Shown here piece after piece: positions 36,069 to 51,373 of a stretch of 64,000 nt of DNA (position 1 is its first letter; every line of letters starts with the position of its first letter). A model generated the notes under the pieces. It searched no databases. It worked only from the letters and a program-made list of their open reading frames with translations, and was not told the DNA's origin. The DNA comes from a virus: the IMG/VR virus record IMGVR_UViG_3300030061_002247, positions 18,878 through 82,877 of that record; one strand, given 5' to 3'. A program made the position numbers and the translations under genes.

Positions 36069-36131
36069 ATGGCTGCACGCATTGGCAAGTCGTCTGTCAG
36101 CACGCCCCTCGACCAAGCGTGGACTGTGTAG
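36069..36131 (+). CDS. 20-residue peptide ending in a tag-like LDQAW
   Basis: MAARIGKSSVSTPLDQAWTV. The end resembles the AFDxAW tag of the following genes. Its TAG stop is part of the ribosome site (TAGGAGG) of the next small gene. Very small, so only the context supports it; may be a leader peptide. Confidence 0.3.
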   Translation: MAARIGKSSVSTPLDQAWTV

Positions 36132-36142
36132 GAGGCGTACTC

Positions 36143-36223
36143 ATGAAGATGCCCAAGATGCATTACAACCAAGGCGGTATGTACTGGCCAGAGAGTAAGA
36201 ACATACAAGTAGAATGCGAGTAA
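36143..36223 (+). CDS. 26-residue peptide
   Basis: MKMPKMHYNQGGMYWPESKN... preceded by GGAGGCG about 6 bases upstream of the ATG. Ends in VECE. No family; the ribosome site is the main evidence. The gap after it (36224-36370) holds a 5-bp hairpin at 36309-36322 and the promoter below. Confidence 0.35.
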   Translation: MKMPKMHYNQGGMYWPESKNIQVECE

Positions 36224-36337
36224 TCCTTTATCGTGGCCGGTGTCATCTGTTTGTCATCTCTCTACCTGTTCCAAAATTGACAAAACTCTTTCATGTTTCA
36301 TAAAGCAGGTGGCATTGGCCACACCTAAAAGCCAGCA

Positions 36338-36350
36338 ACGGTTTTATCCT
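36338..36350 (+). promoter_or_regulatory. TATA-like promoter of the first tagged gene
   Basis: ACGGTTTTATCCTG, centre 36345, 26 bases before ATG 36371, consistent with a leaderless mRNA. Its sequence differs from the extended minus-strand promoter. Confidence 0.4.
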
Positions 36351-36370
36351 GACCCCCCTTGCGCTTGGGC

Positions 36371-36925
36371 ATGGGTGCATTCGACTCCGCATGGTCACTT
36401 CTCAAAAACTTCGATGAGGAGATGGACGAATATCGAAGGGTGATGGATGCTCCACCACCAAGGAGAACACCACAGATGGATGATGACCCATTCAGGATGA
36501 AACAGCCTGATATGAGTGCCCAGATAGAACAGATTCTTGCCGAGATTCAGCGTAGAGAAGGTAGGAAAAACCCTGATTTTCATCACCAAGACTACGATTC
36601 GGTCTTTTATAGAAACAAATATGACCGAGAAAATCCACAGGATAATCAACTCCTGAACACCACAAGACCTCAGATGAAAGACAGAATGGGGGCTCTACGA
36701 GCAGAAATGGAAAGAAGAGCCAGAAAAAGAGGGTCTCCTGTAGTAGGTGATTCTGCCCCACCAGAAGCAAAAGGTCCTCAACCAATGGGAGCACCGGAGT
36801 CTTTCAGTGCTCCAGAGGGCATGACTAACGAGGAATATGGTATTATCGACCAGCCGGACAGTAAGTACACCAAAGAACTACAGGGGCAAGCGCTTCAAGA
36901 CTACATTAAACAAAGGTTTGGTTGA
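36371..36925 (+). CDS. tagged protein 1, 184 aa
   Basis: Begins MGAFDSAWSLLKN, the clearest copy of the shared tag. The rest is charged, Pro-rich and probably disordered (APPPRRTPQMDDDPFRMK...), ending in a helix KELQGQALQDYIKQRFG. The internal segment MSAQIEQILAEIQRREGRK is helical. No known fold. Start at ATG 36371 fits the promoter. Probable virion-associated or internal protein; this is inference from the tag. Confidence 0.62.
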   Translation: MGAFDSAWSLLKNFDEEMDEYRRVMDAPPPRRTPQMDDDPFRMKQPDMSAQIEQILAEIQRREGRKNPDFHHQDYDSVFYRNKYDRENPQDNQLLNTTRPQMKDRMGALRAEMERRARKRGSPVVGDSAPPEAKGPQPMGAPESFSAPEGMTNEEYGIIDQPDSKYTKELQGQALQDYIKQRFG

Positions 36926-36927
36926 AT

Positions 36928-37257
36928 ATGAGTGTTTTTGACTCTGCATGGTCCTTACTCAAGATGGGTAGGCGTAGTGGAAACAACAGGAGAGGTCAAC
37001 AAGTCTCCAATCAGAGGCGTTTCAGAAGACCAATGCAGTTACCACCAGAAGTCATGGAGGTACTAAGTCCTGAGACAAAGGCTAATCTTGAGAGCATGAA
37101 ACAAAGTGACCCAGAGGCATATAACAAGTATCTGATTGAATTGTCTATGGGCTTTAGAGCAAGCCCTCCTCGTAACAGCATGATGCCAGACCCCGGTCAG
37201 AGTCAGGTTCGCATACCATACGACCCACAAAATGAATCAGGGGTTGAAGGGCAATGA
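36928..37257 (+). CDS. tagged protein 2, 109 aa, basic
   Basis: Begins MSVFDSAWSLLKM, then a strongly basic GRRSGNNRRGQQVSNQRRFRR segment and a helix PPEVMEVLSPETKANLESMK. The C-terminal part is Pro-rich. Two bases after the upstream stop. The basic patch next to the tag suits a DNA-bound internal protein. Confidence 0.6.
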   Translation: MSVFDSAWSLLKMGRRSGNNRRGQQVSNQRRFRRPMQLPPEVMEVLSPETKANLESMKQSDPEAYNKYLIELSMGFRASPPRNSMMPDPGQSQVRIPYDPQNESGVEGQ

Positions 37258-37751
37258 GTGCTTTCGACAAGGCTTGGTCCTCTCTTCTCATTAAGGGTAC
37301 GGTTGATGCCATCATGGATGCTGCATCGTCTCCCGCTTTAGTAACACACGAAGACCACAAAAGAAGAAGTCAAGAAATACACCAGATTCTTGAGGATATA
37401 GCGAATCAGCACGGCATTACTACGGCTGATATCCATAGACATATAGACCTGTCAGGTCATCCTGATGACCCTAGCGATGCAGTGTATGATGATGTGGCTA
37501 GACGAAGGGAAGAGTGGGAGCAGCAGAATGGAAAGACAAACTGGCCGGGGTACTACGTGACCCATGAGGGCATAGGACCAGACCCCGAACTCAGGCGTGC
37601 TGCTGATGAGTGGGAACAAAACTTCGACCATCCCGGTGGAGACGACCACTTGGAATCGCTTGGTATACGAGAACAGATAAGAAATGCGATGTATGAAATA
37701 TCAGGACCTGAGTATGATGCTAATTACCAACAGAGGATGGGTCAGCAATGA
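37254..37751 (+). CDS. tagged protein 3, 165 aa
   Basis: Begins MSAFDKAWSSLLIKG. A helical acidic body (RSQEIHQILEDIANQHGITT, then WEQQNGKTNWPGYYVTHEGIG) has no known fold. Start overlaps the upstream stop by ATGA. Only the tag links it to its neighbours. Confidence 0.6.
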   Translation: MSAFDKAWSSLLIKGTVDAIMDAASSPALVTHEDHKRRSQEIHQILEDIANQHGITTADIHRHIDLSGHPDDPSDAVYDDVARRREEWEQQNGKTNWPGYYVTHEGIGPDPELRRAADEWEQNFDHPGGDDHLESLGIREQIRNAMYEISGPEYDANYQQRMGQQ

Positions 37752-38026
37752 GCGCTTTCGACAAGTCTTGGTCGGTTCTGAAGAACCTAGCGCCCACTTC
37801 ACCCTCTGACCCGATGGGCACACGAGCGATAGACTCGATGTTCTGCCAGAGTTGCAAGCAGGGCCTCAATCCGGGCAGTCCACAGTGCGAAAACTGCGGT
37901 GCACCTACTGGAAACAGCATGAGAAACGTCATGGGAGACGGAAATATGCACTCACCGGGGCAGCAGTCCATGATTGAGAGAGCGAGACAGGCCATGGAAG
38001 CGCAGAAAAGGTCAGAGGGACAGTAA
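37748..38026 (+). CDS. tagged protein 4 with zinc ribbon, 92 aa
   Basis: Begins MSAFDKSWSVLKN, followed by a zinc ribbon FCQSCKQGL...QCENCGAPTG and a C-terminal helix ERARQAMEAQKRSEGQ. ATGA-coupled to tagged protein 3. Confidence 0.6.
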   Translation: MSAFDKSWSVLKNLAPTSPSDPMGTRAIDSMFCQSCKQGLNPGSPQCENCGAPTGNSMRNVMGDGNMHSPGQQSMIERARQAMEAQKRSEGQ

Positions 38027-38131
38027 CCAACTGATACCGAACAGCAAAACCATCGTTGCTAGCCCCATCTTGATTACCAAATCAATCACTACCATTCTAA
38101 AACTGTTAAAAATCGCTTCGCTAATGCCCAT
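38012..38131 (-). CDS. small membrane protein on the minus strand, 39 aa
   Basis: MGISEAIFNSFRMVV then a hydrophobic helix (LVIKMGLATMVLLFGISWLLSL) to the C-terminus. It overlaps the 3' end of tagged protein 4 on the other strand by 15 bases. AT-rich sequence upstream (TTTAATAAGGG, AGTTAAAAG) could be its promoter. With the gene at 38396-38746 it forms a leftward island in a rightward region. Tentative. Confidence 0.4.
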   Translation of the reverse strand: MGISEAIFNSFRMVVIDLVIKMGLATMVLLFGISWLLSL

Positions 38132-38173
38132 AACTTACGATTCATCGAGCAAAAGACGGTCTTTTAACTAAAC

Positions 38174-38186
38174 CCTTATTAAAGCA
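38174..38186 (+). promoter_or_regulatory. TATA-like promoter
   Basis: CCCTTATTAAAGC, centre about 38180, 28 bases before ATG 38208, consistent with a leaderless or very short leader. The rest of the 38132-38207 gap shows nothing else clear. Confidence 0.4.
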
Positions 38187-38207
38187 GCACCATACATAGT
38201 ATTCCCG

Positions 38208-38399
38208 ATGACAGTATCCGAGAGCGCCTTCGCTGCGGCGTGGCTTCTACTCAAGCATCAGGAGAATGGTGTCGATTTTTCCTCGAAAGAGGACCAATTC
38301 ATCACTGGGACTATCCTCAAGATGATGAACTCCGACGATTTGAGGCTTCAAGAGGAAGCAGGCATGCTTTACGCACGCTATAAGGTCATGAAATCCTAA
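38208..38399 (+). CDS. tagged protein 5, 63 aa
   Basis: Begins MTVSESAFAAAWLLLKH, a diverged tag. The body is one helical acidic stretch (EDQFITGTILKMMNSDDLRL) ending YKVMKS. The stop overlaps the 3' end of the minus-strand gene by 4 bases. Confidence 0.55.
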   Translation: MTVSESAFAAAWLLLKHQENGVDFSSKEDQFITGTILKMMNSDDLRLQEEAGMLYARYKVMKS

Positions 38400-38746
38400 G
38401 AACGAGTGGTTGTGCTTCCAGTGGAAGCCCCTGACATCATTCTTTGACGTGCTTCTTGCTCCATTCTGGCTGTATCCTGCTGATTTCGGGCTGCGGCCTC
38501 TTGTAGGCTACCCATTGCCTGTCCCATCGGACTTTCCTTCGCCGCATCCAAAGTTTCCTTCATTTCCTTGCCTTTATCGGCTAAATTAGCCATATTTTGC
38601 CCAATTTTCGAGTTTTTGGCCGCTACACCGACTTTTTTAGCGGATTGTAGGCCTTTTGAGCCTAATTTCGCTGCTGCCGGGCCTACTCTGGCCAATCCAG
38701 CGACTAGAGCCGGGAGAAACTTCTCAATGTCGTAATCCGACTCCAT
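38396..38746 (-). CDS. Ala/Lys-rich helical protein on the minus strand, 116 aa
   Basis: MESDYDIEKFLPALVAGLARVGPAAAKLGSK... with helical repeats rich in Ala, Lys and Met, ending in Ser/Thr repeats. It is the longest open frame in this stretch and runs against the surrounding genes. A minus-strand TATA (GCGTATAAGGCG, near 38786) lies 40 bases before the ATG. The composition resembles membrane-active or scaffold-like phage proteins, but no family is assigned. Confidence 0.5.
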   Translation of the reverse strand: MESDYDIEKFLPALVAGLARVGPAAAKLGSKGLQSAKKVGVAAKNSKIGQNMANLADKGKEMKETLDAAKESPMGQAMGSLQEAAARNQQDTARMEQEARQRMMSGASTGSTTTRS

Positions 38747-38768
38747 AACACGTCGGAGAAGCAGAAAC

Positions 38769-38792
38769 TAATTATGGTGTCGCCTTATACGC
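38769..38792. promoter_or_regulatory. back-to-back TATA-like elements
   Basis: CTAATTATGG (plus, centre about 38774, 26 bases before ATG 38800) and GCGTATAAGG (minus, centre about 38786, 40 bases before ATG 38746) lie side by side in the divergent gap. Confidence 0.35.
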
Positions 38793-38799
38793 CGCTAGC

Positions 38800-39039
38800 A
38801 TGGGGTTTGAGTTCGATTTGGCGTTCGAGTCACTCAAGAAGGGTCAATTCGGGATGAAAGGCTCTCAATATATCTCAAATCGACCAAAAGCGAAGGCGAA
38901 AGCCAAGGTTCAGCGTCTAGCGAGAAAGACGAAGAACCGAAAGACGAAGGCTCGCTACAAACGCAACCTAGATAGGGGTAACACACGTCCGAGGATGCGT
39001 AGGCAGACAGGCCTAGTCAGAATATCCAGAAGGAGATAG
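38800..39039 (+). CDS. tagged very basic protein, 79 aa
   Basis: Begins MGFEFDLAFESLKKGQF, a tag variant, then an extremely Arg/Lys-rich chain (KAKAKAKVQRLARKTKNRKT, RISRRR). Composition is protamine- or histone-tail-like, so it probably condenses DNA and may be packaged with the genome. No zinc or catalytic motif. Confidence 0.62.
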   Translation: MGFEFDLAFESLKKGQFGMKGSQYISNRPKAKAKAKVQRLARKTKNRKTKARYKRNLDRGNTRPRMRRQTGLVRISRRR

Positions 39040-39044
39040 ATAAA

Positions 39045-39590
39045 ATGAATGCATTCGACACAGCATGGACACTACTCAAAGCAGACAAAGAGAAGTGCCC
39101 TTCATGCAATATGTCGAAATCAGAGTGCATGACTCATAAAATGGGCTGCGGCGGTGAGATGAAGAAGGCATATGTGATGAGAAAAGCCGCTTTCAGACTA
39201 AAATACGACTACAACACACTCAGGAAATCGTACAGAGATGAGTACGAGGACTACTCGGATGGCCCTCCAATGGGTGAGTTCGATATGGCTCAGGCCGTAT
39301 CCGACCACAATGACGGGATGATTTTCGATGACCACATGCCTAGGAACGAGAAAGAGAAACAGATACTACACCACTACATGAACAAACTGAATGTTATTCC
39401 GGGTTTGACAGCAGAGGAGCAGGGATTGGATGATGATGACCACCAAATGGCCAGCGATGTGGCTCAAGAGTACTTCGTAGAGCACATGAGGGAAATGGAA
39501 GCCATGAACTCAGGCGTTACCGGTAGAGACAGCGCACCGTCGAAAGTAGGAGTCTCCTCCCCTCAGATACCAGAGCAGCGTAATCAGTGA
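39045..39590 (+). CDS. tagged protein with cysteine module, 181 aa
   Basis: Begins MNAFDTAWTLLKADKEK, then CPSCNMSKSECMTHKMGCGG, a Cys-rich module, and a long acidic helical body (KYDYNTLRKSYRDEYEDYSD...). AGGAGA lies about 7 bases before the ATG. Unknown fold. Confidence 0.62.
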   Translation: MNAFDTAWTLLKADKEKCPSCNMSKSECMTHKMGCGGEMKKAYVMRKAAFRLKYDYNTLRKSYRDEYEDYSDGPPMGEFDMAQAVSDHNDGMIFDDHMPRNEKEKQILHHYMNKLNVIPGLTAEEQGLDDDDHQMASDVAQEYFVEHMREMEAMNSGVTGRDSAPSKVGVSSPQIPEQRNQ

Positions 39591-40234
39591 TGTGTATGAA
39601 GGACAAGGGCAAGAAAGCAGGGATGACACTGGTTATCGCTGTCGGCCCTAAGATGCCCAAGAAACCCACTGAGACCTCGAAACCAGACGAGAAGGCCATG
39701 AAGAAGGCTTTTGATGTTGCTTGGGGTGTAGTTAAGGCTATTCCAGAGGCAAATAGTAGGTTTTCTCAACAAAATTTGGGAGAACTACCTCATACAATGG
39801 GTACATCTTCGGCAGAACCTCTTCAATCATTCAATGTGGATGATAAATTGGACTTAGAAAACGATTTGAATGAAGGAAGGGCACAATATATGGATGAAGA
39901 TATGGGTGACCGGAATTTTAGAGGAAACATTGCCGCAGATTACAGACCTCAAGGTGCAAATGAAGGTAACGAAGAGTATTACAGAGGACTTTTAGAGGAA
40001 ATGCTACGAGGAAAAATCTCAGGAAGAAAGGATATGGCCCATGACCCTGAGATGTTACGAGATTACGACCAAAGACAGGGTGAGTTAATGGATAACGAAA
40101 GAACATCAGTACTTGCAGAGGGTATGGAACCACCAATGCCTCAATCTCAACCTCAATCTGGTGAAATAGGTATAATGTCACCAAGAAATGTTAGAAGATT
40201 TAACCGAGGTATGGGTCCTTCAACCCCGTTTTAG
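39590..40234 (+). CDS. protein with internal tag, 214 aa
   Basis: A 37-residue basic/hydrophobic lead (GMTLVIAVGPKMPKKPTE) precedes KKAFDVAWGVVKA at residues 38-50. The remainder is Gln/Met/Glu-rich and probably disordered. ATG 39590 overlaps the upstream stop by one base; ATG 39596 is an alternative. The tag inside rather than at the end suggests the front part may be removed or that the tag works internally. Confidence 0.55.
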   Translation: MCMKDKGKKAGMTLVIAVGPKMPKKPTETSKPDEKAMKKAFDVAWGVVKAIPEANSRFSQQNLGELPHTMGTSSAEPLQSFNVDDKLDLENDLNEGRAQYMDEDMGDRNFRGNIAADYRPQGANEGNEEYYRGLLEEMLRGKISGRKDMAHDPEMLRDYDQRQGELMDNERTSVLAEGMEPPMPQSQPQSGEIGIMSPRNVRRFNRGMGPSTPF

Positions 40235-40242
40235 GGGATTTT

Positions 40243-41019
40243 ATGACTAGACAGACCGAATTAGGTGAATATCACCCTGATTTTCCCAGTAGCCTCGGTC
40301 CAGTCAATGAGTATCACGGCACAATCGACATGCAGGGCGTTCTCGACCAAGGTATCAGGGGTGGAAACCCGAAAACACGCTCGAAACACTACGTTCCACC
40401 CAGCCTAAGGAATGAGGATAGGGTGTCCTACACCACTGACAATCCAGACCTCGCACGCCAGTTCGCATTGGAAAGGGCCAAAAAGTTCGGCCTGCCTGAG
40501 AGCAGCGTGGGTGTAGTAGGCGTGAGGGGCGGAGGACTGGCTAACCCAGTCCTACAACCAGAGCCTAGCGGTGGTATTTTCAGTGGTACTGAAAGTAATG
40601 TCAGGAGTGGAGGCATTCCTAGGGCCAATCTAGCCCCTATGACGATGAAATCAGACGCTTACGTGCAAGTCACAGCGACTTGTGACTGCTGTTCACCCTC
40701 CACACAGGCGTTCGGCACTCTAGTTGAGGACTATTTCGAGAAGGCCAAGAAGAAATCCAAGCCTTTCCACGGCTACAATCCCAATAGACACCACAAGAAG
40801 GGAGGTCTGAATGCGAAAGGTCGAGCCAAAGCGAAGAGAGAAACAGGTGCAAACCTCAAACCTCCTGTCACTACCAAGCCATCCAAACTCAAACCCGGAA
40901 GCAAGAAGGCGAAAAGAAGGAAATCCTTCTGCGCTCGCATGGGTGGCAGTAAAGGACCTACGAGCAAGGATGGTAAACTAACCCCGAAAGGTGCAGCATT
41001 GAAGAGGTGGAATTGTTGA
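40243..41019 (+). CDS. ART-like domain fused to DUF6321-like C-terminus
   Basis: 258 residues. EYHGTIDMQGVLDQGI and RVSYTTDNPDLARQFALERAK (about 23-90) resemble the front of ADP-ribosyltransferase-like folds (YHGT...IL..GI, then a YxTxxxxxA helix). TCDCCSPSTQAFG is a Cys cluster. The C-terminus KKGGLNAKGRAKAKRE...KRRKSFCARMGGSKGP...GAALKRWNC matches DUF6321 proteins of marine phages. Probable late virion or DNA-associated protein; activity unknown. Confidence 0.6.
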   Translation: MTRQTELGEYHPDFPSSLGPVNEYHGTIDMQGVLDQGIRGGNPKTRSKHYVPPSLRNEDRVSYTTDNPDLARQFALERAKKFGLPESSVGVVGVRGGGLANPVLQPEPSGGIFSGTESNVRSGGIPRANLAPMTMKSDAYVQVTATCDCCSPSTQAFGTLVEDYFEKAKKKSKPFHGYNPNRHHKKGGLNAKGRAKAKRETGANLKPPVTTKPSKLKPGSKKAKRRKSFCARMGGSKGPTSKDGKLTPKGAALKRWNC

Positions 41020-41183
41020 AAAAGGACAAATGTTGTTGTGGTGCTACTAAGAATAATCCATGTAAATGCATGGAGTTAGGCAAACAATGCTCCATGACTC
41101 CACCTCGCTGCCCATGTTACAAATTGCTGTATGCACAGAAAAAAGCCGCTGACAAACTAACCAAAATGGTGGGTGTCATATGA
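41016..41183 (+). CDS. cysteine-rich protein, 55 aa
   Basis: TTG start overlapping the upstream stop (TTGA); KDKCCCGATKNNPCKCMELGKQCSM...CPCYKLL, ten cysteines in 55 residues, then a basic helix. Likely binds zinc or another metal; coupled to the next gene by ATGA. Confidence 0.5.
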   Translation: MKKDKCCCGATKNNPCKCMELGKQCSMTPPRCPCYKLLYAQKKAADKLTKMVGVI

Positions 41184-41371
41184 TAGATTCTTGTGGTTGT
41201 GGTCACTGCGTCGGCATGGATGGTGCATGGGACACACTCGAAAAGAAACTCTGTCCAGCAGGTAAAGCCGCTGCAAAGAGGAAGTTCAAGGTCTATCCGT
41301 CTGCCTATGCTAATGGATGGGCTGTACAGTATTGCCGGGGAAAGTTTCGAGGGAAAGGTAAGAAGAAATGA
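41180..41371 (+). CDS. small basic protein with tag-like segment, 63 aa
   Basis: MIDSCGCGHCVGMDGAWDTLEKKL contains a GAWDTLEK variant of the tag after a Cys-rich start. Then AAAKRKFKVYPSAYANGWAVQYCRGK, a segment I recall from phage proteins with KVYPSAYAN. Basic end GKGKKK. Unknown role. Confidence 0.55.
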   Translation: MIDSCGCGHCVGMDGAWDTLEKKLCPAGKAAAKRKFKVYPSAYANGWAVQYCRGKFRGKGKKK

Positions 41372-41934
41372 GTACCGATTCAAACTCCCGCTGCACTTGC
41401 CACAATACGTTGGTGGTAAAGAACCTGAACCGATGGTTCAAGGAGAAGTGGGTAGACGTATCGAGAAAGGACAAGGATGGGAAACACCCACCATGCGGAA
41501 GGGGGAAAGCAAAATTGTCTGGAAAAGGATACCCGAAGTGCAGGCCGTCGGTGAAAGTTTCAGGCGAAACTCCAAAGACTTCTGGTTCGATGTCAAGTGG
41601 ACAAAAAAGAGCAGCCACAAAGCGAAAAAGAGCCAAGAAACAGGGGATTGGTGGGAAGCCGACGATTGTTAAGGGTGTAGCAGTCCTCAAAGCGAGAGAG
41701 TTGTCCCCAGAAGCCCAACGTCATAAGAAGGAATATGACACAAAGTACGAGTCTAGCCCTGAGCGTGTGAAGTACCGTGAAGAACTCAATAGGGAAAGAA
41801 GACGACGAGGCATCTACGGGTCTCACAACCGTAAGGATGTCAGTCACACACAAGGTGGGAGGCTCACGTTAGAGGGGGAGCATGCGAACAGGGCTAGACA
41901 CTTCAAAAATAGAGGCACTTTACGGGTAGTTTAG
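41368..41934 (+). CDS. DUF5872-like basic protein, 188 aa
   Basis: RWFKEKWVDVSRKDKDGKHPPCGRGKAK...YPKCRPSVKVSGETPKT matches the conserved front of DUF5872 proteins in marine phages. The second half (SPERVKYREELNRERRRRGIYG and KDVSHTQGG) is basic with a possible nuclease-like or zinc HxxN pattern. The gene overlaps the upstream stop by ATGA. Probable DNA-associated late protein. Confidence 0.6.
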   Translation: MSTDSNSRCTCHNTLVVKNLNRWFKEKWVDVSRKDKDGKHPPCGRGKAKLSGKGYPKCRPSVKVSGETPKTSGSMSSGQKRAATKRKRAKKQGIGGKPTIVKGVAVLKARELSPEAQRHKKEYDTKYESSPERVKYREELNRERRRRGIYGSHNRKDVSHTQGGRLTLEGEHANRARHFKNRGTLRVV

Positions 41935-41950
41935 TACAGAAGGCTTATGA

Positions 41951-41973
41951 TAGCCACCCTCGTGGGGTCTTTC
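41951..41973 (+). terminator. possible terminator hairpin
   Basis: CCAC-CCTC-GTGG followed by GGTCTTTCT in the 53-base gap after the DUF5872-like gene. The stem is short, so this is weak. Confidence 0.3.
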
Positions 41974-41987
41974 TAGAGGTCACTAAG

Positions 41988-42626
41988 ATGAGCAGACAAG
42001 ACCCCAGCGATAAATCAGAAATGAGACTGACAGGATTGATACTAACTCAGTCGGCTCTAGTGGGAGTTGCAATAGGCATCTACGATGCTGGATTGTGGCT
42101 ACCCGGAGGAACAGGAGCGAGCGAATACGTCAACGGAATGACATATGCTATGGGGGCATTGGCAATTCAGATTCTAGCATATTACTTGTTCAAGATGTTC
42201 TTTGAGGAGCAAATGCAAGAGAGAGTCAGAATGTCGGAAATGCAAAGACAGAGAGACTACCGCTTCAGAGAGCAGCAATTCAGTTACGACCAGCGTAGAG
42301 CAGACATGGAACTACGTATGCAGGAGATGACATTAGAGAAAGAACTGCTTTGGATGCAACAAAATCCCGGTAAGATGCCACCTTCAATGATGTCAAACAG
42401 CCAGTCTGGTATTTCAGGTCTAGGTGTTGACCTATTCAACACATCAAAACCACCACAACACACAGCAAATGTTACTGCTCCTCAGAGTTTTGGCTTAGAC
42501 TCCCTCGCAGACGAGATGCTACAAGAAACTGTTATTCCACCTAGAGACATTTCTAGTCAAACTATACGTTTGAAGAAGGATGGAACGCCAGACCTTAGAT
42601 ATACGAAGGGTAGTGGCAAGGTCTGA
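41988..42626 (+). CDS. membrane protein with long coiled coil, 212 aa
   Basis: Two hydrophobic segments (TGLILTQSALVGVAIGIYDA and MTYAMGALAIQILAYYLFKM, about residues 16-65), then a long Gln/Arg/Glu-rich coiled coil (about 70-130) and a disordered tail. Topology suggests both ends in the cytoplasm. Next to a second membrane protein and a GTPase. Confidence 0.6.
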   Translation: MSRQDPSDKSEMRLTGLILTQSALVGVAIGIYDAGLWLPGGTGASEYVNGMTYAMGALAIQILAYYLFKMFFEEQMQERVRMSEMQRQRDYRFREQQFSYDQRRADMELRMQEMTLEKELLWMQQNPGKMPPSMMSNSQSGISGLGVDLFNTSKPPQHTANVTAPQSFGLDSLADEMLQETVIPPRDISSQTIRLKKDGTPDLRYTKGSGKV

Positions 42627-42886
42627 TGGGTAGAATATTCAAGACACCTAAAGACGACTCGGTGGAGGAAACTCTACGGGCAATGCACCTCGCAAACACG
42701 GTTGACAACACATACGAATGGGGGGTTGGTTGGCTCAGGACAATTCTTGCATCTTTCGGTGCTGCTTTAGCAGTCAGTGCAATGGAGTCTTACACAGATT
42801 TCACTCTATGGGGTTGGACAGTCGAATGGTCATATCAACAAATTGAGGGCTTTGCTGATTGGCTATACTCTAAACTCCCTAATTAG
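42626..42886 (+). CDS. small membrane protein, 86 aa
   Basis: Central hydrophobic stretch (WLRTILASFGAALAVSAM, about residues 36-53) with aromatic-rich flanks and a C-terminal amphipathic helix. The gene starts at the last base of the upstream stop. May associate with the GTPase that follows. Confidence 0.55.
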   Translation: MGRIFKTPKDDSVEETLRAMHLANTVDNTYEWGVGWLRTILASFGAALAVSAMESYTDFTLWGWTVEWSYQQIEGFADWLYSKLPN

Positions 42887-42895
42887 GTGAGATGA

Positions 42896-43609
42896 ATGGT
42901 AGGTGGAGGAAGCGTACTCGTCGGTGTAGCCATATACGGACAACACCTCTACAATGCATGGAAACCGAGAAAAGTCGGTATTTACGGCACAAGCATGGTT
43001 GGGAAGACCACATTAGACCGCTACATGACCACACCCGGTGAGATGGAAGAGATATCAGAGGATGATAGAACAGAACACTTCAAACTAATCACTAGATACA
43101 TGTTGCCCAAACCGACTAGGAAGAGAATATCTTGGCAGGGCGAAAAGAGAGTGGTATACTCCGCAGACATAGGCGGGCAAGAGAGGTTCTGGAATCTGTG
43201 GATTGACGATATGGTGTCCAGACAGGTGGAGTGCGTCATGTACGTGTTCGATGACAGGGCTTTTGCTGGTGGACCTGAGGGTGCAGAGCAAGTTGCCGGT
43301 TTCAAGTACCTTGTAGATAGGCTCATCCAGAGAGATTACAGATACAGAACCCTCAGAAGCAGATGGAAGGGAAAGAAGTACACACCTAGGATGCTAATGT
43401 TGGTGGCTAATAAAGCGGATAGGTTCTTTGACAAGAAGGCTGCTGAACTCTGGCAGCAGAACAGAATAGGCGAACACAAGATATTCGACCCGTTCCGAGA
43501 TGACCTGATTAGATTGCAGAAAGCGAGGCTTCCCACAAAGCGTGCTTTCATGGCTACTCGTGTGGGTTGGAACGTCGAACCAACCCTAGTAGAACTCTTG
43601 ACCTCTTGA
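42896..43609 (+). CDS. Arf/Ras-like small GTPase
   Basis: 237 residues. G1 is GTSMVGKTT (31-39), G3 is DIGGQER (about 90), and G4 is ANKAD (about 171-175), all intact. The G3 form DxGGQE resembles Arf and the archaeal/eukaryotic small GTPases. The front is short and hydrophobic (GSVLVGVAIYGQHLYNAW), perhaps a membrane anchor. It follows two membrane-protein genes. It may organise assembly, tail or membrane steps, but its effector is unknown. Confidence 0.72.
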   Translation: MVGGGSVLVGVAIYGQHLYNAWKPRKVGIYGTSMVGKTTLDRYMTTPGEMEEISEDDRTEHFKLITRYMLPKPTRKRISWQGEKRVVYSADIGGQERFWNLWIDDMVSRQVECVMYVFDDRAFAGGPEGAEQVAGFKYLVDRLIQRDYRYRTLRSRWKGKKYTPRMLMLVANKADRFFDKKAAELWQQNRIGEHKIFDPFRDDLIRLQKARLPTKRAFMATRVGWNVEPTLVELLTS

Positions 43610-43644
43610 GTGACCTTTTTGATGTAGTAGGGTGTGCGACCTCT

Positions 43645-44861: not shown

Positions 44862-45499
44862 CATTAGGATTATCTAATCTAGGAGGTCAACAATCGTCAT
44901 CCACTCTCAGTTTAGGCGCTAGCCAGTCTAATGCTTTCGGCCAACAGCCTATGCAAAACGGGTATGCTCCTAATGCATACGGTACTTCTCCCTTGATGGG
45001 TGGCATTCTAGGGGGTGCAGGCATATCCCCCCAACAATACAACGCTCCAGTAGCCCCTCCTTCGGAGACTCAGATTCTAGCCTCGATGCTTGGCACAATC
45101 CAACCGATTGACAAGTTCATCGTCAGCCAGAACATGCCTGTCTTCATCGAGATGCTATCGAACATCACCACATTCTCCCTTCTCAATGTCTTGAAGAATG
45201 CATCTTTCACCATGGACGAGGAGACTGGTAGTCTCTCACTCGATGTGACTTCAATGCCAAGCGACCTACAGACTCTAAGTGCCGAGAACATCATAGCACA
45301 ACTCAATAGTCTACAGAACACTTCCATGCAGATAATTCAACAGGCAGAGCAAGAGAGACAGCAGATACTACAGATGGCCGACCAATCACTGATGCAGGGC
45401 ATGTTGAACACAGCACTGGCTGACCCCGGCATGATGGAGTCAGTAGGGCAAGCCACTGGTGGCTTCATCAACAGAGCACTATTCGGGGGCAGAGTATGA
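44858..45499 (+). CDS. Gln/Met/Ser-rich protein, 213 aa
   Basis: GTG start after GAGGTG. Front is Gly/Gln/Ser/Asn-rich; the middle QPIDKFIVSQNMPVFIEML and the coiled coil QQAEQERQQILQMADQS may oligomerise. Ends RALFGGRV. Unknown function. Confidence 0.5.
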   Translation: MTLGLSNLGGQQSSSTLSLGASQSNAFGQQPMQNGYAPNAYGTSPLMGGILGGAGISPQQYNAPVAPPSETQILASMLGTIQPIDKFIVSQNMPVFIEMLSNITTFSLLNVLKNASFTMDEETGSLSLDVTSMPSDLQTLSAENIIAQLNSLQNTSMQIIQQAEQERQQILQMADQSLMQGMLNTALADPGMMESVGQATGGFINRALFGGRV

Positions 45500-45765
45500 T
45501 GTCAGGACCAAGTAGCAGAGGTTCACTTCCTCTGGGAGTGCCGAACCAAGTGGCCAACTTGTCGTTAAACATGTTCTCGCACAAGAGAAGCGTGATTATC
45601 GACATGGTGATGATTCAACTCATCAGTGCGATACTCGTTATGCTCTTCGTCTTGGTGTTCAAGGCTGCTGATATCAGTCAGACAGACGCTTCGATGGCCA
45701 TGATTGCCATCTTTATATCAATGATGGGCCTCGGTACGATATACACCAGAATAAGTCGGATGTAA
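45496..45765 (+). CDS. membrane protein with two spans, 89 aa
   Basis: Two hydrophobic helices (MIQLISAILVMLFVLVF and MAMIAIFISMMGLGTIY) joined by a short loop KAADISQTDAS. Small size and two spans fit a holin-like or assembly membrane protein; neither is proven. Confidence 0.5.
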   Translation: MMSGPSSRGSLPLGVPNQVANLSLNMFSHKRSVIIDMVMIQLISAILVMLFVLVFKAADISQTDASMAMIAIFISMMGLGTIYTRISRM

Positions 45766-45813
45766 ACGTATAAATCAACAACGTTCATTTGGTGATTATA
45801 CCTCCGGTCACTC
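45766..45813 (+). promoter_or_regulatory. TATA promoter and start-codon hairpin
   Basis: CGTATAAATC (centre about 45773) with an expected start site near 45798. A perfect hairpin CGGTCAC-TC-GTGACCG at 45805-45820 covers the GTG start codon at 45814 and may control translation. Confidence 0.45.
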
Positions 45814-46491
45814 GTGACCGAGCGAGAGCGAGTGGTCAAGAGGTCCTGTGCCTTTTGTCAAACTGATGATAGAGAGCAATTGGAAGAGGCACTCTTGAAC
45901 GGTGAAATCAGTTGTAAACAACTGGACAAGGACATGGCTTGGAGAGCCAACACAGCAGACCGTCATTTCAAGAATCACATGGGAGAGTACCACATGGATT
46001 CAAATCCATCTTGCCCTATTTGCTCTCACGATAGAAGGGGAGAGTTCGAGACAGGATACTTCGAGGGCATACTACCCAGCGAGGACATAGCGGAAGTCAT
46101 AGGTTGTTCTGAGAACTCGGTCTACCATCACATGAAACATCACTTCCAACCCCTCGTCAAGAAAGCAGCAGCATTCGAGGTTGCCATCGCTCTAGGGCAG
46201 GAAGTCAATGTTCTTCGTACCAATGTCGAGAAACTCAATGACAAGTTCAATGAGTTGTTGGACTACGGCAGCGTTCACGAAGACGGCTTCGTGGGTGATG
46301 CGGTGAAACTACACAAGGAAGTCAGAGAGAGCATCAAAGACCTAGTGAAGTTGAATGACACTTGGGGAGCAGAGAGCGATGGTGCACAAATCAACCAGAC
46401 GTTCAACATACTAAAGGTCGAATTAGCCAAGGAAAGTCCTGATAGTTGGAAGAGGATTAAAGAGCAGTTATTGGAACAGCAAGGCGAGTGA
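45814..46491 (+). CDS. duplicated zinc-HTH protein, possible small terminase
   Basis: 225 residues with two similar units: CAFCQTDDREQLEEALLNGE...ADRHFKNHMGEYH and CPICSHDRRGEFETGYFEGI...SVYHHMKHHFQPL, each a CxxC followed by a helix-turn-helix and Hx3-4H. Phage proteins of this type often act as small terminase or DNA recognition factors. The C-terminus is a long coiled coil. It precedes the large terminase by several genes, which fits but does not prove the role. Confidence 0.5.
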   Translation: MTERERVVKRSCAFCQTDDREQLEEALLNGEISCKQLDKDMAWRANTADRHFKNHMGEYHMDSNPSCPICSHDRRGEFETGYFEGILPSEDIAEVIGCSENSVYHHMKHHFQPLVKKAAAFEVAIALGQEVNVLRTNVEKLNDKFNELLDYGSVHEDGFVGDAVKLHKEVRESIKDLVKLNDTWGAESDGAQINQTFNILKVELAKESPDSWKRIKEQLLEQQGE

Positions 46492-46501
46492 GGTGGGGAG
46501 C

Positions 46502-46921
46502 ATGGAGCAAAGAATAGTAATTACTGATTTACTACAGATGTCTCATCCGGGCTACAGGCTAATCAAGAATGGTAGAATAATCAAAGAAAACGAACTTCCT
46601 CTTCTTCTGGACTACGCTACTCTGGTATACAAGAGATTCAAGTTCTACGTCAATCGAGACTCGTATGGCAACCTTGAGTACTCATCTTTCCTCAATGACA
46701 TAGTGGATTCGATGAAGACCCTATCCGAGGATGACGACCCAGTGACTGTCTGGCCAGTACGAGACAATCTCAAAGCACTACTACCACTCTTCGAGGACGA
46801 ATGCAGGAGAATGGGGAAGTGCTTCACCAATCCACCTTTCGTCAAATCATTCTACATCGAACTATCAGATGCTATATCACAGGCCGCCAACTCGATGATG
46901 GGGGAGAATGAAGTAATATGA
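46502..46921 (+). CDS. uncharacterised helical protein, 139 aa
   Basis: MEQRIVITDLLQMSHPGYR... with ELPLLLDYATLVYKRFKF and a helical end SFYIELSDAISQAANSMMG. ATG 46502 lies about 8 bases after GAGGTG; a GTG at 46493 is possible. No family recognised. Confidence 0.5.
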   Translation: MEQRIVITDLLQMSHPGYRLIKNGRIIKENELPLLLDYATLVYKRFKFYVNRDSYGNLEYSSFLNDIVDSMKTLSEDDDPVTVWPVRDNLKALLPLFEDECRRMGKCFTNPPFVKSFYIELSDAISQAANSMMGENEVI

Positions 46922-48216
46922 CCGGGGGTATGATGGGTCGTGGTAGCGATACCAGACTGTACAACTCAAGAAGCGAATCCTCTACCATGTTCAGGTATAA
47001 CGACGGGTATGAGAGTCGCTACAACCCCGGTGACCCTGAATATCTAGACGCTGAGAAGGAGAAGAAGCAGAAAGAGCAGGACAAGCAGGAGCAGAAACTC
47101 AAGAACAGGAAGCACGTCAAGGTCACACCTGCTCTACTTCAGCAATTCAAGGACGAGCCTTCAGTAGGACCTGAAGATGACTCCGAGAAGATTGACGCAG
47201 ACCGTGAGTTGTCTGCTATTACAGGACCACCCGGCAACGGTGGTTTCCTGACCAGTCTCGCCACACAAGCCAAAGGACCGGGAGCAGCAGGCGGTCATGC
47301 TATATTCACCAGTGAGCCTATGGATAATGCTTGGTCATCACTCCTCAAGTCATTCGGTGAGAGTACTGATACCGCCATGCTCAGACCACTCAGAGAGTCT
47401 GGTAGAGCAGACGACAAGGAAGCGGTGCGAGAGAGGAGAAAGAAGTTCAAACCCAGCACAGGCCAGTTCAAGACAGGGCCGGGAGGTATGAGCGGAGGCA
47501 TCAACGCCACCGAGCGTTCCTACAAGGCCAAGAGGAGAGGTGTCACTAGAGGCAAGAAAAGAGGAATGATGCAAGCACCCCTATCTGTCGAGATGGAGCA
47601 TCGTGCAATTGCAACCAAGCAGCCGATGAGCAAAGACCCCGGTGCATACAGGAGTTACATGGGTGCTCAAGGCGGCAGGAAGAGAACAGGCAACGTCAGA
47701 GTCACAGAGTCAACACCCAACCCGAAGAATCCTAGGTCGTACAAGGCAGGTGAGACTGGCGCAGGTACAATTCAATCCAAACTACCGAGTGAGATGAAGC
47801 CGAAAGTCCCAAGGCCTAGACTGAAACCACACCGTGCACCACCCATAGTACCACCTAGAATCAGTGGTATGCCACATCTCAACATGGGTGGCTCTACACA
47901 ATCCTTCTCCCCTAGAATGTCTAATCAATCAATGTCGATGATAGGCAAGAGTCGAAAGATGACATGGGGAGACAAGCAGGAACTGAGGATACTCGCTCAA
48001 AAGGTGGCAAGGCTACTTGACAAGAAGGAGAACAAGAAGAAAGGGAAGGGAGACAAGGACACTTCAGGTGGTGGCTCTAATCTACCAAAACACCCCTCTA
48101 ACTCAAGAGACCAGACCAGCAAACCCAACGGACCAACAGAGAACATAGAGGAAGAGGAGATGCATGGTGCTGACCCTGTTGGTATCTACACCAGCAGGGC
48201 GGGTCGAACAGCATGA
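46918..48216 (+). CDS. large basic protein with internal tag, 432 aa
   Basis: Charged Lys/Glu-rich front (EKEKKQKEQDKQEQKLKNRK), then Gly/Pro-rich sequence. EPMDNAWSSLLKSF at about 134-147 matches the shared tag internally. The rest is basic and Pro-rich (PKVPRPRLKPHRAPPIVPPR) with a Lys-rich end. Probably disordered and virion-associated. Unknown function. Confidence 0.5.
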   Translation: MTGGMMGRGSDTRLYNSRSESSTMFRYNDGYESRYNPGDPEYLDAEKEKKQKEQDKQEQKLKNRKHVKVTPALLQQFKDEPSVGPEDDSEKIDADRELSAITGPPGNGGFLTSLATQAKGPGAAGGHAIFTSEPMDNAWSSLLKSFGESTDTAMLRPLRESGRADDKEAVRERRKKFKPSTGQFKTGPGGMSGGINATERSYKAKRRGVTRGKKRGMMQAPLSVEMEHRAIATKQPMSKDPGAYRSYMGAQGGRKRTGNVRVTESTPNPKNPRSYKAGETGAGTIQSKLPSEMKPKVPRPRLKPHRAPPIVPPRISGMPHLNMGGSTQSFSPRMSNQSMSMIGKSRKMTWGDKQELRILAQKVARLLDKKENKKKGKGDKDTSGGGSNLPKHPSNSRDQTSKPNGPTENIEEEEMHGADPVGIYTSRAGRTA

Positions 48217-50453
48217 CCCTCCTCTTCAAATCAGTCACACATGCCTTACTAGCAAGTGGCATGCTCAGAAAGGGAGAGGGGACGTACACCGTTGACCCCC
48301 TCACTGGTGAGTTGGTGTTCCTAGGAGACACTCACCCGGACCAGTACCACGACCTCAACCCCACCAACGACATGGGATACGACCTACCCAAGAACGCCAG
48401 ATATGGCGACAGGGCAGCAGAGGGAGATTGGGGCATGGGCGCTGATGGCGAGCATGTCTACACTGACATACACGGCAACGAGCATCGACACGGAATAGAC
48501 GCACTGATAGCGAAGGTGTCCAAGATAACCGGTAACGGTGAACTCGCTAGGCAGATAATCAGCGATGCGATAGGCGATTACAACGACGACCATCAGGATG
48601 CGAAGAACCAGAGTCTCCCTGAGGACATCATGTCACCAGAATGGAGGAGACTGACCAAGGGTGATTTCTCCAGCCCGAAAACCACAGAGCAGGCGAACCA
48701 GTTCTCCGCTCGTGGCAAGGGTGGTACTTTCATCAACCTCAACATGAGCAGTGATGCTCGCCTCAAGCACTCCAAGCAGGGCCTAGCAGCGCACCCTGAG
48801 TCGTATAGGATACCATTCGCACCTTACCTGCACGACATTCTCAGGGAGGACTTCAACTACAAATCAAACTTCGATGAGGGAATCACGCATGGCTACATCT
48901 CAGGCAGGCACATATCTCCTAACACTAGGAGACTGAGGGGTAGGGTAGGTGAGAACCTAGCAGATGACATGACACTACCACCTGAGTTCAGGGAGATGCT
49001 CGGCCACTCATCCGTAGGTGACGTGGTGCACAACGACGTTCACAACTGGGAGATGGTTCAACACATGCCTCTTGACATTTTCAATCCTCTTCCCGAATAT
49101 GGAAAGGGAGTAAAAAATCCGGGCGGCACTAACATAAAGAAAGAAAACTATCGTGAATACATGTTAAAATTGCTACCAGCGATTGTCTCTAATCTCAATG
49201 AGAACAACACCGAGATGCTAGACGTTCCCCTATTTACGAGACAAGACCCATCAGGCCCTGTTGAAGGTCCTACAGTCAGGGAGATATATGATGAGACTAG
49301 ATTTGGGAAGAAGTTTCCTAAACTTGACGAAATAATAGACCAGATGGCCATGAGTCCTGATGCTCTTCAATTCATGCTCGGCAACCCTGCTCAGAAGACA
49401 TCACGTGTCAATAAGTTGGTGAACACTCTCAAGAATGAACTGATAGCACACCCCGATTTGAAGGGGCAGGGACAGCAGATGTTCGACAATGCCATGGAGA
49501 GGGTCACTGCCGGTAACACTTTGGGGACTCACGGCAAGAAGGGCAAGGCAGTGCACATGCCAGCAGCCGAGTTCCTCGCACTCTCAGGTGTCATAGGAAG
49601 TCTAGACGCTCTCACTAACTTCGCTCAAGAAGAGCCTGCTCATGAGACCTCTCAAAGTCAGAAAGACATGTTCTCCCTCTTAGGGTCTCTCGTCACATTG
49701 GGTCACGGTGGCACGGTGCGTGAGTTCGCACCTGTGTCAGGAGAGGCCGCTCCCGGTCTAGTCCCCAAGTATCTAGATGGTCACCTCGATGTCAACAGAC
49801 CATTGCCTGAGCACATGCAGAACTACTTCGTGCCGAGCGCAATGACAGAGGCATACTACTCCCCGCTAGCGACAGATGACTCAGAGCCGATGGCGAAACC
49901 AGAAGCACAACCCGAAGCACCACCACCTGATTTCGCTAGTATGGATGACGAATACCGGAAGAAAGTAGGAGAGGCTATATCCAGAAGAATGCAAAAAGAG
50001 CCGATGTTCGGTCTTCCATCGTATTTCCAACAGACTGGTAAGCAACCAGTAGACCCTCTTTCTCTTGACGAGCAGCAAAGGCAAAAACTCATGGAAGCAG
50101 TCAAAACTTTTGGTGCTTCACAAAGCCCTTATCAAACAAAGTTGACTGACTCCTTCCCAGTGGCAACCAGTTTCGATACACTATCCATCGAAGACAGACT
50201 GGTGAAAGCAATGGAAAGAGTCCAGATGCTTGAGGCCAAAAGGGACGTGGCTGTGCTCAAGCAGATGCCCAAGGAGAACCTTAGTGCTAACAAGGAGGAC
50301 GACGTGTCATTCCTCGCCATGAAACTCGGTATCACCAAGCAGGATGTCAGAACCATATCCAACAGCAAAGGCGATTGGGACAGGATTGCCAAGGCATACA
50401 AAATCAAACCATCAGTAGTCAAGGTGGTCAAGGTCACACTGGGGGGAGAGTGA
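48213..50453 (+). CDS. uncharacterised large virion-type protein, 746 aa
   Basis: Long protein with no recognised catalytic domain. Begins TLLFKSVTHALLASGMLRKGE, then a His/Asp-rich segment (GDGEHVYTDIHGNEHRHGID region), many acidic/aromatic patches and a C-terminal helix TKQDVRTISNSKGDWDRIAK resembling a small DNA- or RNA-binding helix-turn-helix. Position among assembly genes suggests a structural or tail protein. Overlaps both neighbours. Confidence 0.5.
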   Translation: MTLLFKSVTHALLASGMLRKGEGTYTVDPLTGELVFLGDTHPDQYHDLNPTNDMGYDLPKNARYGDRAAEGDWGMGADGEHVYTDIHGNEHRHGIDALIAKVSKITGNGELARQIISDAIGDYNDDHQDAKNQSLPEDIMSPEWRRLTKGDFSSPKTTEQANQFSARGKGGTFINLNMSSDARLKHSKQGLAAHPESYRIPFAPYLHDILREDFNYKSNFDEGITHGYISGRHISPNTRRLRGRVGENLADDMTLPPEFREMLGHSSVGDVVHNDVHNWEMVQHMPLDIFNPLPEYGKGVKNPGGTNIKKENYREYMLKLLPAIVSNLNENNTEMLDVPLFTRQDPSGPVEGPTVREIYDETRFGKKFPKLDEIIDQMAMSPDALQFMLGNPAQKTSRVNKLVNTLKNELIAHPDLKGQGQQMFDNAMERVTAGNTLGTHGKKGKAVHMPAAEFLALSGVIGSLDALTNFAQEEPAHETSQSQKDMFSLLGSLVTLGHGGTVREFAPVSGEAAPGLVPKYLDGHLDVNRPLPEHMQNYFVPSAMTEAYYSPLATDDSEPMAKPEAQPEAPPPDFASMDDEYRKKVGEAISRRMQKEPMFGLPSYFQQTGKQPVDPLSLDEQQRQKLMEAVKTFGASQSPYQTKLTDSFPVATSFDTLSIEDRLVKAMERVQMLEAKRDVAVLKQMPKENLSANKEDDVSFLAMKLGITKQDVRTISNSKGDWDRIAKAYKIKPSVVKVVKVTLGGE

Positions 50454-51373
50454 TGGGTAAGATTCTCGTCAAGTCACCAGCCATTGCTGCACCCTTGTCT
50501 GCTGCTCTAGGCAACACAGTTCAAGATGCCTTCAGGGTAAAGACACCATTTGGGAGAGGAGTCGGTGGTGCTCTCGGTGGACTTTCAGCACTGACATCCC
50601 TAGCAGATGCAAGCGAGAACCAGCAAGACCTACTCAGTGGGGCACAGATGGCCGCCGGTCGTGGCGTAGGTGCTTACATCGGTGCAGGTAAGGTAGCAGA
50701 CTCTGCTCAACCAATGGTCAGTCAGGCTTATGACAAGACTCATCGGGGATTCAACAAACTCAGAGGTGTAGCCCCGCCTGAACACAGAGACCAACAAATA
50801 GCAGTGCGTAGGGAAAGAGCAGCACAACCTGCCGCCTCGCCGGACTTCAACGTACCAGAAAACTTCCAACTGGGGATATACGGCACACCCATGCCCGGAG
50901 GTAATCAAGTGGTATCAGGTCAAAAGGGTATACAGAGAAATATGTTCAACCCAGCAGCACCAGCAGCGCCTACCGGTCTTGAAGCAGCAGGACTAGGCAA
51001 CGTAGACCCATCAGTGCTGCAAAATGTCGCTCCTAATCCTGATGTTAGAGCAGGACAGTCATATGCTGACCAAGTTTACCAGACACCAACTGGCTCTGCC
51101 GGAGTGCCCACAATGAGCATGGAGCAGATGGGTCAGATGCTACCGGGGGTCGAACAACCCTCTCTTCAAACACAGAATGCCAAAGTAGGCTCTACTGAAG
51201 TTGGTGTTCCTGCAAAACAAGCGGTAGACCCGAATCAAGTAAACCCTGAAGACCTTGTTGCTGAGATGAATCCACAGGGCGCTGCTGGTTATTTTGGTTA
51301 TCAGAATAATATGAAAAACGCAGGAGAACCGATGGAACTGGCTTTTATGTTATTGAAGTCGGTGATGCGATGA
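50453..51373 (+). CDS. protein with C-terminal tag, 306 aa
   Basis: Gly/Ala-rich front (AAPLSAALGNTVQDAFR, RGVGGALGGLSALT) looks membrane- or assembly-like; the middle is Pro/Gln-rich. The end EPMELAFMLLKSVMR resembles the shared tag but at the C-terminus. ATG 50453 overlaps the previous stop by TGATG; its own stop overlaps the terminase start by ATGA. Confidence 0.5.
   Translation: MGKILVKSPAIAAPLSAALGNTVQDAFRVKTPFGRGVGGALGGLSALTSLADASENQQDLLSGAQMAAGRGVGAYIGAGKVADSAQPMVSQAYDKTHRGFNKLRGVAPPEHRDQQIAVRRERAAQPAASPDFNVPENFQLGIYGTPMPGGNQVVSGQKGIQRNMFNPAAPAAPTGLEAAGLGNVDPSVLQNVAPNPDVRAGQSYADQVYQTPTGSAGVPTMSMEQMGQMLPGVEQPSLQTQNAKVGSTEVGVPAKQAVDPNQVNPEDLVAEMNPQGAAGYFGYQNNMKNAGEPMELAFMLLKSVMR

Follow-up and report, generated by a model that had tools for sequence, protein, structure and literature searches.

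A short tag shared by unrelated late proteins of magrovirus-type viruses is a probable capsid-targeting propeptide

Late proteins of a magrovirus-type virus that otherwise have nothing in common carry a tag of about 13 residues. We consider it probable that this tag is an interchangeable capsid-targeting propeptide, which would load proteins into the magrovirus-type head, probably for delivery to the host together with the DNA. The evidence is the modularity of the tag, its restriction to viruses and to their late strand, its conserved residues, the swapping of cargo behind it, its use in polyproteins and the occurrence of similar [LIVM]xK sites in head proteins.

A tag on unrelated late proteins

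The window (the whole 64-kb stretch of DNA that was analysed) belongs to an 82.9-kb record of magrovirus type, which encodes a thermosome, PolB and a clamp loader as well as terminase, portal and prohead protease. Its replication genes are of archaeal type and, with thermosome and PolB, occupy the other strand from the morphogenetic module; magroviruses have two modules that run in opposite directions (PMC12999244). The identified capsid module consists of phage-type genes only (terminase, portal, protease, capsid protein). To our knowledge, viruses of this type have neither an isolate nor a virion proteome and have been found by metagenomics only.

The first-pass annotation had picked out a pattern of the AFDxAWSLLK type, and the tags it listed are indeed present in the window:

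36069..36131, + strand: remnant of a tagged gene, the 20-aa ORF MAARIGKSSVSTPLDQAWTV (then stop); homology to relatives spans the tag and ends there
36371..36409, + strand: tag MGAFDSAWSLLKN, N-terminus of the 36371-36925 protein; profile score 32.7
36928..36966, + strand: tag MSVFDSAWSLLKM, N-terminus of the 36928-37257 protein; score 29.9
37254..37295, + strand: tag MSAFDKAWSSLLIK, with one residue inserted, N-terminus of the 37254-37751 protein; score 17.0
37748..37786, + strand: tag MSAFDKSWSVLKN, N-terminus of the 37748-38026 zinc-ribbon-like protein; score 29.3
38223..38258, + strand: tag variant SAFAAAWLLLKH, within the 38208-38399 protein
38809..38841, + strand: weak tag variant EFDLAFESLKK, in the 38800-39039 arginine/lysine-rich protein
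39045..39083, + strand: tag MNAFDTAWTLLKA, N-terminus of the 39045-39590 cysteine-containing protein; score 37.0
39704..39739, + strand: tag KAFDVAWGVVKA, about 40 residues into the 39587-40234 protein; score 24.9
40243..41019, + strand: untagged homologue of tagged cargo, beginning MTRQTELGEYHPDFP, with a C-terminal DUF6321
41216..41248, + strand: degenerate, doubtful tag MDGAWDTLEKK, in the 41180-41371 protein
47317..47352, + strand: internal tag PMDNAWSSLLKS, in the 46918-48216 basic protein
51326..51358, + strand: C-terminal tag EPMELAFMLLK, in the 50375-51373 protein

Two entries needed qualification. MDGAWDTLEKK, listed earlier as a tag, is present but weak, and its homologues read MDSAFDFLEKK or AMDTAFQILKG there; the C-terminal tag exists, at the position given here and not at 50453, which is the end of the preceding gene. 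The suspected LDQAW tag in the 20-aa ORF turned out to be what is left of a tagged gene: the 420 nt upstream are 92% identical to two related records (G021 and L172), the downstream DNA is unrelated, and an intact tagged gene occupies the place in two close relatives. At the tag place, homologues of the 38208-38399 protein read MTAFNEAWLLLKT or RAFDDAWLMLKS and those of the 38800-39039 protein DPFEAAWDSISKG or EAFDRAWEIIRS, while the G002 homologue of the 46918-48216 protein has two internal tags, GEPMEIAFQLLKA and GNPIEIAFQLLKS. The N-terminal module of the untagged 40243..41019 protein is preceded by a tag in G001 and L047 (NPFDRAWALLKQDTRQSTLGEYHPDFP). DUF6321 also occurs in cyanophages and pelagiphages, and the 36371-36925 protein is charged and disordered-looking.

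The tag is almost confined to the late strand of viral genomes

In the six frames of the window [AVF]FDxxW has six matches, all on the late strand between 36.3 and 39.7 kb. Among 14 related records picked by terminase only (G001-G014), FDxAW has 34 matches against 3 for the reversed pattern, and in 30 records 127 against 4; a tag profile at a score of at least 8 selects 161 ORFs from 1,540, and 4 from 3,080 controls that were reversed or shuffled. These controls, together with the unrelated clusters described below, refute chance or a mis-read conserved domain as the origin of the tag, even though look-alikes exist in thermosome (ERAFDDAAGVVKV), PolB (PFDEAEALAKHL) and a bacterial phage tape-measure protein (SAFDKAWSRLK), which we treated as false positives.

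Seventeen related records hold 136 tagged proteins, about 2-16 per record. Equal occurrence in early or host proteins would have spoken against a packaging signal; instead, tags were found on 135 of 910 late-strand ORFs and on one of the 630 other, early-strand ORFs (Fisher p 1.5e-31), FDx[AG]W alone had all 99 of its matches on the late strand, and a start-anchored pattern of the tag had no match in 84,980 cellular genomes (GTDB). The expected enrichment at the N-termini of late genes was also borne out, with 116 tags N-terminal, 17 internal and 3 C-terminal. At the DNA level the start-anchored pattern occurs in at least 119 IMG/VR stretches. A terminase of this lineage (E <= 2.5e-93) is present in 35 of 50 tag-bearing records, with none detected in the other 15. 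A 24-aa tag query had no match among annotated phage records, a weak test with so short a query, and one tagged protein of G018 had no match in known phages.

Cargo is swapped and fused behind the tag

The remainder of each protein had been described as unrelated, and clustering agrees: with the tag masked, 138 tagged proteins fall into 89 BLAST clusters or, once two thermosome false positives that form one cluster are removed, 136 proteins into about 88, which rules out the tag being part of one conserved domain. A wider set of 612 tagged ORFs gives 261 clusters, and includes chance matches such as the bacterial phage tape-measure family.

Three near-identical viruses, close relatives of one another, have 420 nt and the tag in common: their DNA agrees to 92-95% as far as the tag and differs completely directly after it. 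Cargo has thus been swapped behind a fixed tag, a natural exchange that hints, suggestively only, that the tag might suffice for head entry of a foreign protein. Tags also separate modules in polyproteins, in up to five copies, as in a 960-aa protein of G001. A signal that is self-contained in this way would leave the cargo genes behind it free to be exchanged, fused or lost.

A helix-like half and a lysine end

With FDx[AG]W as the sole anchor, 93 of 99 sequences have K at position +9 and 90 of 99 have L, V or I at position +7, and conservation stops at about position 11; W and D are near-invariant. The hydrophobic moment at 100 degrees (0.43, against 0.27 when shuffled) fits the amphipathic helix that the first-pass annotation had envisaged. 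The sequence pattern suggests that T/S/N-A/P-F-D-x-A-W forms an N-capped amphipathic docking helix, followed by [LIV]-x-K. One-residue insertions occur between the two halves (AWSSLLK), and most tags of G030 have a different residue before the K (VAK, VSK, IAK, LTK).

In a more distant group of these viruses, tags that sit on unrelated proteins resemble each other more when they come from one genome than when they come from different ones (0.581 versus 0.532; 0 of 500 permutations), which points to a common docking partner. Some of this likeness could come from copying, given that the synonymous codon identity of tags within genomes is 0.51 against 0.40 expected. A secretion signal peptide was rejected: the tag has no hydrophobic core of about 7-15 residues, has D, K and polar positions that vary inside a span of 11 residues, and is also found internally and C-terminally.

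A candidate site for the prohead protease

Three further features of the window bear on the end of the tag:

48213..48272, + strand: N-terminal 20 residues of a conserved 746-aa protein, ending in an [LI]xK-G site conserved in 15 records
62467..63870, + strand: prohead protease with a scaffold-like C-terminal half; residues 16 and 168, two of its conserved [LIVM]xK sites, flank the protease domain
63873..64000, + strand: beginning of the major capsid protein, truncated where the record ends; its N-arm includes GSELLKADAP

In both groups of viruses [LIVM]xK is conserved at capsid residue 34, at protease residues 16, 168, 289, 392 and 432, and at residue 20 of the 746-aa protein, and also in an 1831-aa protein. 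Of the lysines conserved in these four proteins, 17 of 27 fall within the motif, compared with 6 of 39 for conserved lysines elsewhere among conserved proteins (p 1.5e-4); the four 'matured' proteins of this comparison were chosen after the alignments had been seen. The motif is short, with a background of 26% of all lysines, and a number of the conserved sites may serve other purposes. From the resemblance to the capsid and protease-scaffold sites we propose that the [LIV]-x-K end of the tag is a prohead-protease cleavage site, that the capsid N-arm GSELLKADAP holds a putative site of the same type, and that the 746-aa protein may be cut at [LI]xK-G after residue 20. The prohead protease would then be the processor of the tag as well as a candidate receptor for it. 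Cleavage next to lysine has a precedent in HK97, which cuts at K103/S104 (PMC10275583).

What the tag carries

The cargo comprises basic DNA-binding-like proteins, zinc ribbons and candidate enzymes with mostly weak GNAT, PARP/ART, HD_4 and ASCH matches (PARP E 0.013; ART-PolyVal 0.093; GNAT 0.004-0.1; HD_4 8.5e-5), which lie below curated cut-offs where checked. Cargo probably includes ADP-ribosyltransferases, acetyltransferases and HD-domain enzymes. AlphaFold models of two cargo families were of low confidence (mean pLDDT 58 and 45), and a fold search with them returned nothing significant (Tse6 first, E 1.2). A protein-kinase reading of one family was dropped, as it rested on motif impressions without Pfam support.

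Discussion

From these patterns we infer docking to a receptor, cleavage, presence in the virion and ejection, in a sequence that might run as follows. T/S/N-A/P-F-D would cap a short amphipathic helix whose F-A-W-L face docks on a common prohead partner, for which the protease-scaffold protein or some other core protein is the likeliest candidate. Once activated, the prohead protease would cut after [LIV]-x-K, freeing the cargo inside the head; the capsid N-arm, the borders of the protease's own domains and its scaffold tail would be cut at similar sites. The freed basic proteins, zinc ribbons and probable enzymes would be ejected with the genome. For the wider proposal, that docking helix and protease site form a two-part code serving as a universal loading label for an exchangeable injected arsenal, swapped by recombination and including protease-cut polyproteins, we see the chances as about even.

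Encapsulins and microcompartments load unrelated cargo through short peptides, helical or linear, that sit at one of its two ends. The tag might likewise be a non-cleaved loading peptide that docks to the inner shell and stays on, LLK being part of the helix. Its helix-like character and its occurrence at N-termini, at C-termini and internally would suit such a peptide, and the internal and C-terminal copies are easier to explain by docking than as propeptides. However, K at +9 is kept while its neighbours vary, [LIV]xK recurs at conserved places in capsid and protease, and one-residue insertions part the two halves, so that we regard this reading as unlikely. The known peptides, moreover, belong to cellular compartments, not to virus heads, and are not coupled to a maturation protease.

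Alternatively, the tag could bind another viral late factor that folds or holds the proteins, not the head; the thermosome, a chaperonin that the virus encodes, and a Ras/Roc-like GTPase that adjoins the tag island are examples. Chaperonins are known to have an affinity for amphipathic helices, and the GTPase is conserved near tagged genes in all 17 records. But four genomes with many tags (G015, G022, G029 and G030, whose records may be incomplete) have no detected thermosome, and the cleavage-like end of the tag would be left without apparent reason; we find this improbable. Least plausible of the remaining readings, and very improbable, is a DNA recombination cassette for gene shuffling, conserved as DNA and not as protein. 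Gene content does switch exactly at the tag in close relatives, and synonymous codons match somewhat above expectation within genomes, but F, D, A, W and K are kept between unrelated proteins although roughly half of their synonymous codons are different, other residues preserve the protein pattern in the internal variant PMDIAFQLLK, and early genes lack the tag.

The capsid-targeting reading is closest to the capsid-targeting sequence (CTS) of phage T4, and the earlier suggestion of an encapsidation signal of this type, which the sequence evidence partly supports, remains the best reading; all of the earlier predictions that sequence could check came out in its favour. Like the CTS found in the internal proteins IPI-III and in the propeptide of Alt, the tag is a short segment, N-terminal and common to several unrelated late proteins. 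The T4 CTS has targeting positions 4 and 7, processing positions 8 and 10 and a protease site L/I-x-E at its end; its cargo consists of small basic proteins and an ADP-ribosyltransferase, and Alt is also processed at its C-terminus (PMC9026906). The tag differs in sequence and in its archaeal virus, it also occurs internally and in multi-tag polyproteins, and its packaging is a prediction from sequence. At its end the gp21 motif L/I-x-E is replaced by [LIV]-x-K (93/99); since the proposed cleavage residue is K and not E, we class the tag as CTS-like in its working, not as a CTS member. The likeness gains weight because [LIV]xK sites are conserved in capsid and protease proteins.

Other systems share less. 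In phage P1 the N-terminal 30 residues of DarB direct this injected protein into the head (PMC9024508), a signal described there for one protein, without a shared family-wide tag. Polyvalent proteins of phages and conjugative elements are multi-domain effectors that combine ART, kinase and ParB-like domains and for which packaging and injection are predicted (PMC5512222), whereas magrovirus-type modules are mostly separate tagged genes or separated by tags and have no common header domain. The giant phages SPN3US and phiKZ process internal or ejected head proteins with the prohead protease at A-x-E (PMC10052503), but most of their propeptides are long (111-254 residues), two have 20 and 24 residues, and they do not form a single 13-residue tag common to all.

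The exact motif strings had no match in the open-access literature, and an earlier mention in magrovirus papers outside it is possible; with that proviso, the tag would be the first such code found in an archaeal virus. With a loading tag that can be read from sequence, a search yields a list of candidate proteins carried in the virion and directed at the host (136 in the 17 records), in viruses that infect abundant ocean archaea. If the wider proposal holds, the label alone would list the injected proteome of uncultured archaeal viruses. The tag would also offer a protease site of head maturation that can be put to the test, and a natural peptide with which proteins could be brought into capsids.

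Shared tag on late proteins of the window

That a tag of about 13 residues, with a putative docking half FDxAW and a [LIV]xK half, recurs on late proteins is certain. The pattern [AVF]FDxxW has six matches in the window's six frames, every one on the plus strand between 36.3 and 39.7 kb, and a start codon directly precedes five of them. These are the clear copies among the roughly dozen listed in the first-pass annotation; its remaining items are weaker, most being backed by relatives, and that at 41216 is doubtful as a tag. Homologues of the 38208 and 38800 proteins bear clear tags (MTAFNEAWLLLK, EAFDRAWEIIRS). A second form, PMDIAFQLLK, includes an internal copy at 47317 and a C-terminal copy at 51326; a pattern spanning PMDIAFQLLK-type and NPFDQAW forms gave 37 matches in 17 records versus 0 in reversed proteins.

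Spread among related viruses

AFDxAWxxLK occurs in at least 120 IMG/VR stretches and a stricter start-anchored pattern in at least 119, the latter with 0 matches in 84,980 cellular genomes. FDxAW was present in 13 of 14 records selected by terminase similarity only (34 matches versus 3 for the reversed pattern); across all 30 records it had 127 matches versus 4 reversed, on one strand per record without exception. A terminase of the same lineage was found in 35 of 50 tag-bearing records, and none was seen in the other 15. The tag is common to two groups, with terminases 76-98% versus 43-46% identical to the window's.

Gene plan and tag-bearing genes

The window covers bases 18,878-82,877 of the 82,877-base virus record. 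Its minus strand carries a thermosome, family B DNA polymerase, clamp-loader-like ATPase and SNF2 helicase; its plus strand carries the terminase, portal and prohead protease, with the start of the capsid protein at the window's end. This layout matches the opposed-module plan given for magroviruses, tailed viruses of marine Poseidoniales (PMC12999244). Other features are:

40243-41019, untagged protein that combines DUF6321, present also in cyanophages and pelagiphages, with an N-terminal module of the tag-associated kind
42896-43609, small GTPase of Ras/Roc-like type whose N-terminus is hydrophobic, close to the tag island and kept in 17 of 17 records, both groups; to our knowledge, unusual within a tailed-virus late module
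56922-62417, a conserved and very large protein whose gene separates those of portal and protease; its length is ~1830 aa or ~1150 aa depending on the group, it has three conserved [LIVM]xK sites, and a Pfam search gave no match
62467-63870, plus strand, prohead protease with a long, charged, scaffold-like C-terminal half; the N-arm of the capsid protein is just a short one

Sixteen more records were examined at full length, bringing the set to 17, and the ORFs of the whole set were scanned with a 12-column tag profile. Tagged ORFs made up 135 of 910 on the terminase strand versus 1 of 630 on the opposite strand (p 1.5e-31), a count that leaves out two thermosome ORFs whose tag-like matches we regard as look-alikes. 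With the tag masked, 138 tagged ORFs fell into 89 clusters, one being the thermosome pair. Neighbouring tagged genes form runs in the records with the most tags. Among Pfam matches of tagged proteins, those to GP88, DUF6321 and DUF5872 were the stronger ones; those to acetyltransferases, PARP/ART, HD, ASCH and zinc ribbons were weak. One two-tag protein (3097-4251, plus strand, in tag-bearing record L252) has an HD_4-like domain, of RelA/SpoT-hydrolase type, directly behind its second tag.

Modularity and cargo exchange

Of the tagged proteins, 116 have the tag at the N-terminus, 17 inside the chain and 3 at the C-terminus, and some consist of several tagged modules in a row. A 960-aa protein of G001, a record picked by terminase only, has tags near residues 2, 278, 494, 666 and 868 with a different stretch behind each; its last module recurs elsewhere. 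The window's short ORF at 36069-36131, listed in the first-pass annotation as perhaps tagged, is the remnant of a tagged gene that has lost its cargo. In G021 and L172, close relatives with an almost identical terminase, 420 upstream bases and the tag are 92-95% identical to the window's, whereas the sequence immediately behind the tag differs in all three viruses, the relatives bearing two different cargoes at the place of the remnant. Cargo has been swapped behind a constant tag.

Tag anatomy, proposed partner and probable function

Ahead of F-D, tags mostly have T/N/S at position -1 and A/P at position 0; such an arrangement is typical of a helix N-cap. As a helix, the tag would bring F1, A4, W5 and L8 together on the same side; at the helical angle its hydrophobic moment is 0.43, versus 0.27 for shuffled tags. 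The [LIV]-x-K half can be shifted by one residue (AWSSLLK), and in one related record (G030) the residue preceding K varies in most tags. Our profile, trained on a DNA pattern, is biased towards a final K; anchoring on FDx[AG]W alone, which is free of that bias, gave K in 93 of 99 copies.

Within the second group, two tags of unrelated proteins were more alike when they came from one genome than from different genomes (0 of 500 permutations); the same test in the first group was not significant (44 of 500). Such likeness would agree with co-evolution with a single receptor. Copying of tag DNA may explain part of it; synonymous identity of tags was 0.51 versus an expected 0.40.

Both groups also conserve [LIVM]-x-K elsewhere: the capsid N-arm has it (S/T-E/D-LLKAD), as do the two borders of the protease domain (LLKG/S/A; ILKE/M), the scaffold tail, the N-terminal region of a 746-aa protein and the 1831-aa protein. 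This context surrounds 17 of 27 conserved lysines in the capsid, protease-scaffold, 746-aa and 1831-aa proteins; among the other conserved proteins the figure is 6 of 39 (p 1.5e-4). Since the grouping was chosen after the alignments were inspected, we take this as a lead and not as proof. HK97 protease cleaves at K103/S104 (PMC10275583).

The closest working parallel is the capsid targeting sequence of T4 internal proteins, which has targeting and processing positions and terminates in L/I-x-E, the site of the prohead protease gp21 (PMC9026906), unlike the [LIV]-x-K end of the tag. We liken the two in mode of action only and claim no kinship. Removal of the tag by the head protease is plausible, an evenly balanced proposition; capsid targeting is the likeliest function of the tag, and one we consider probable.
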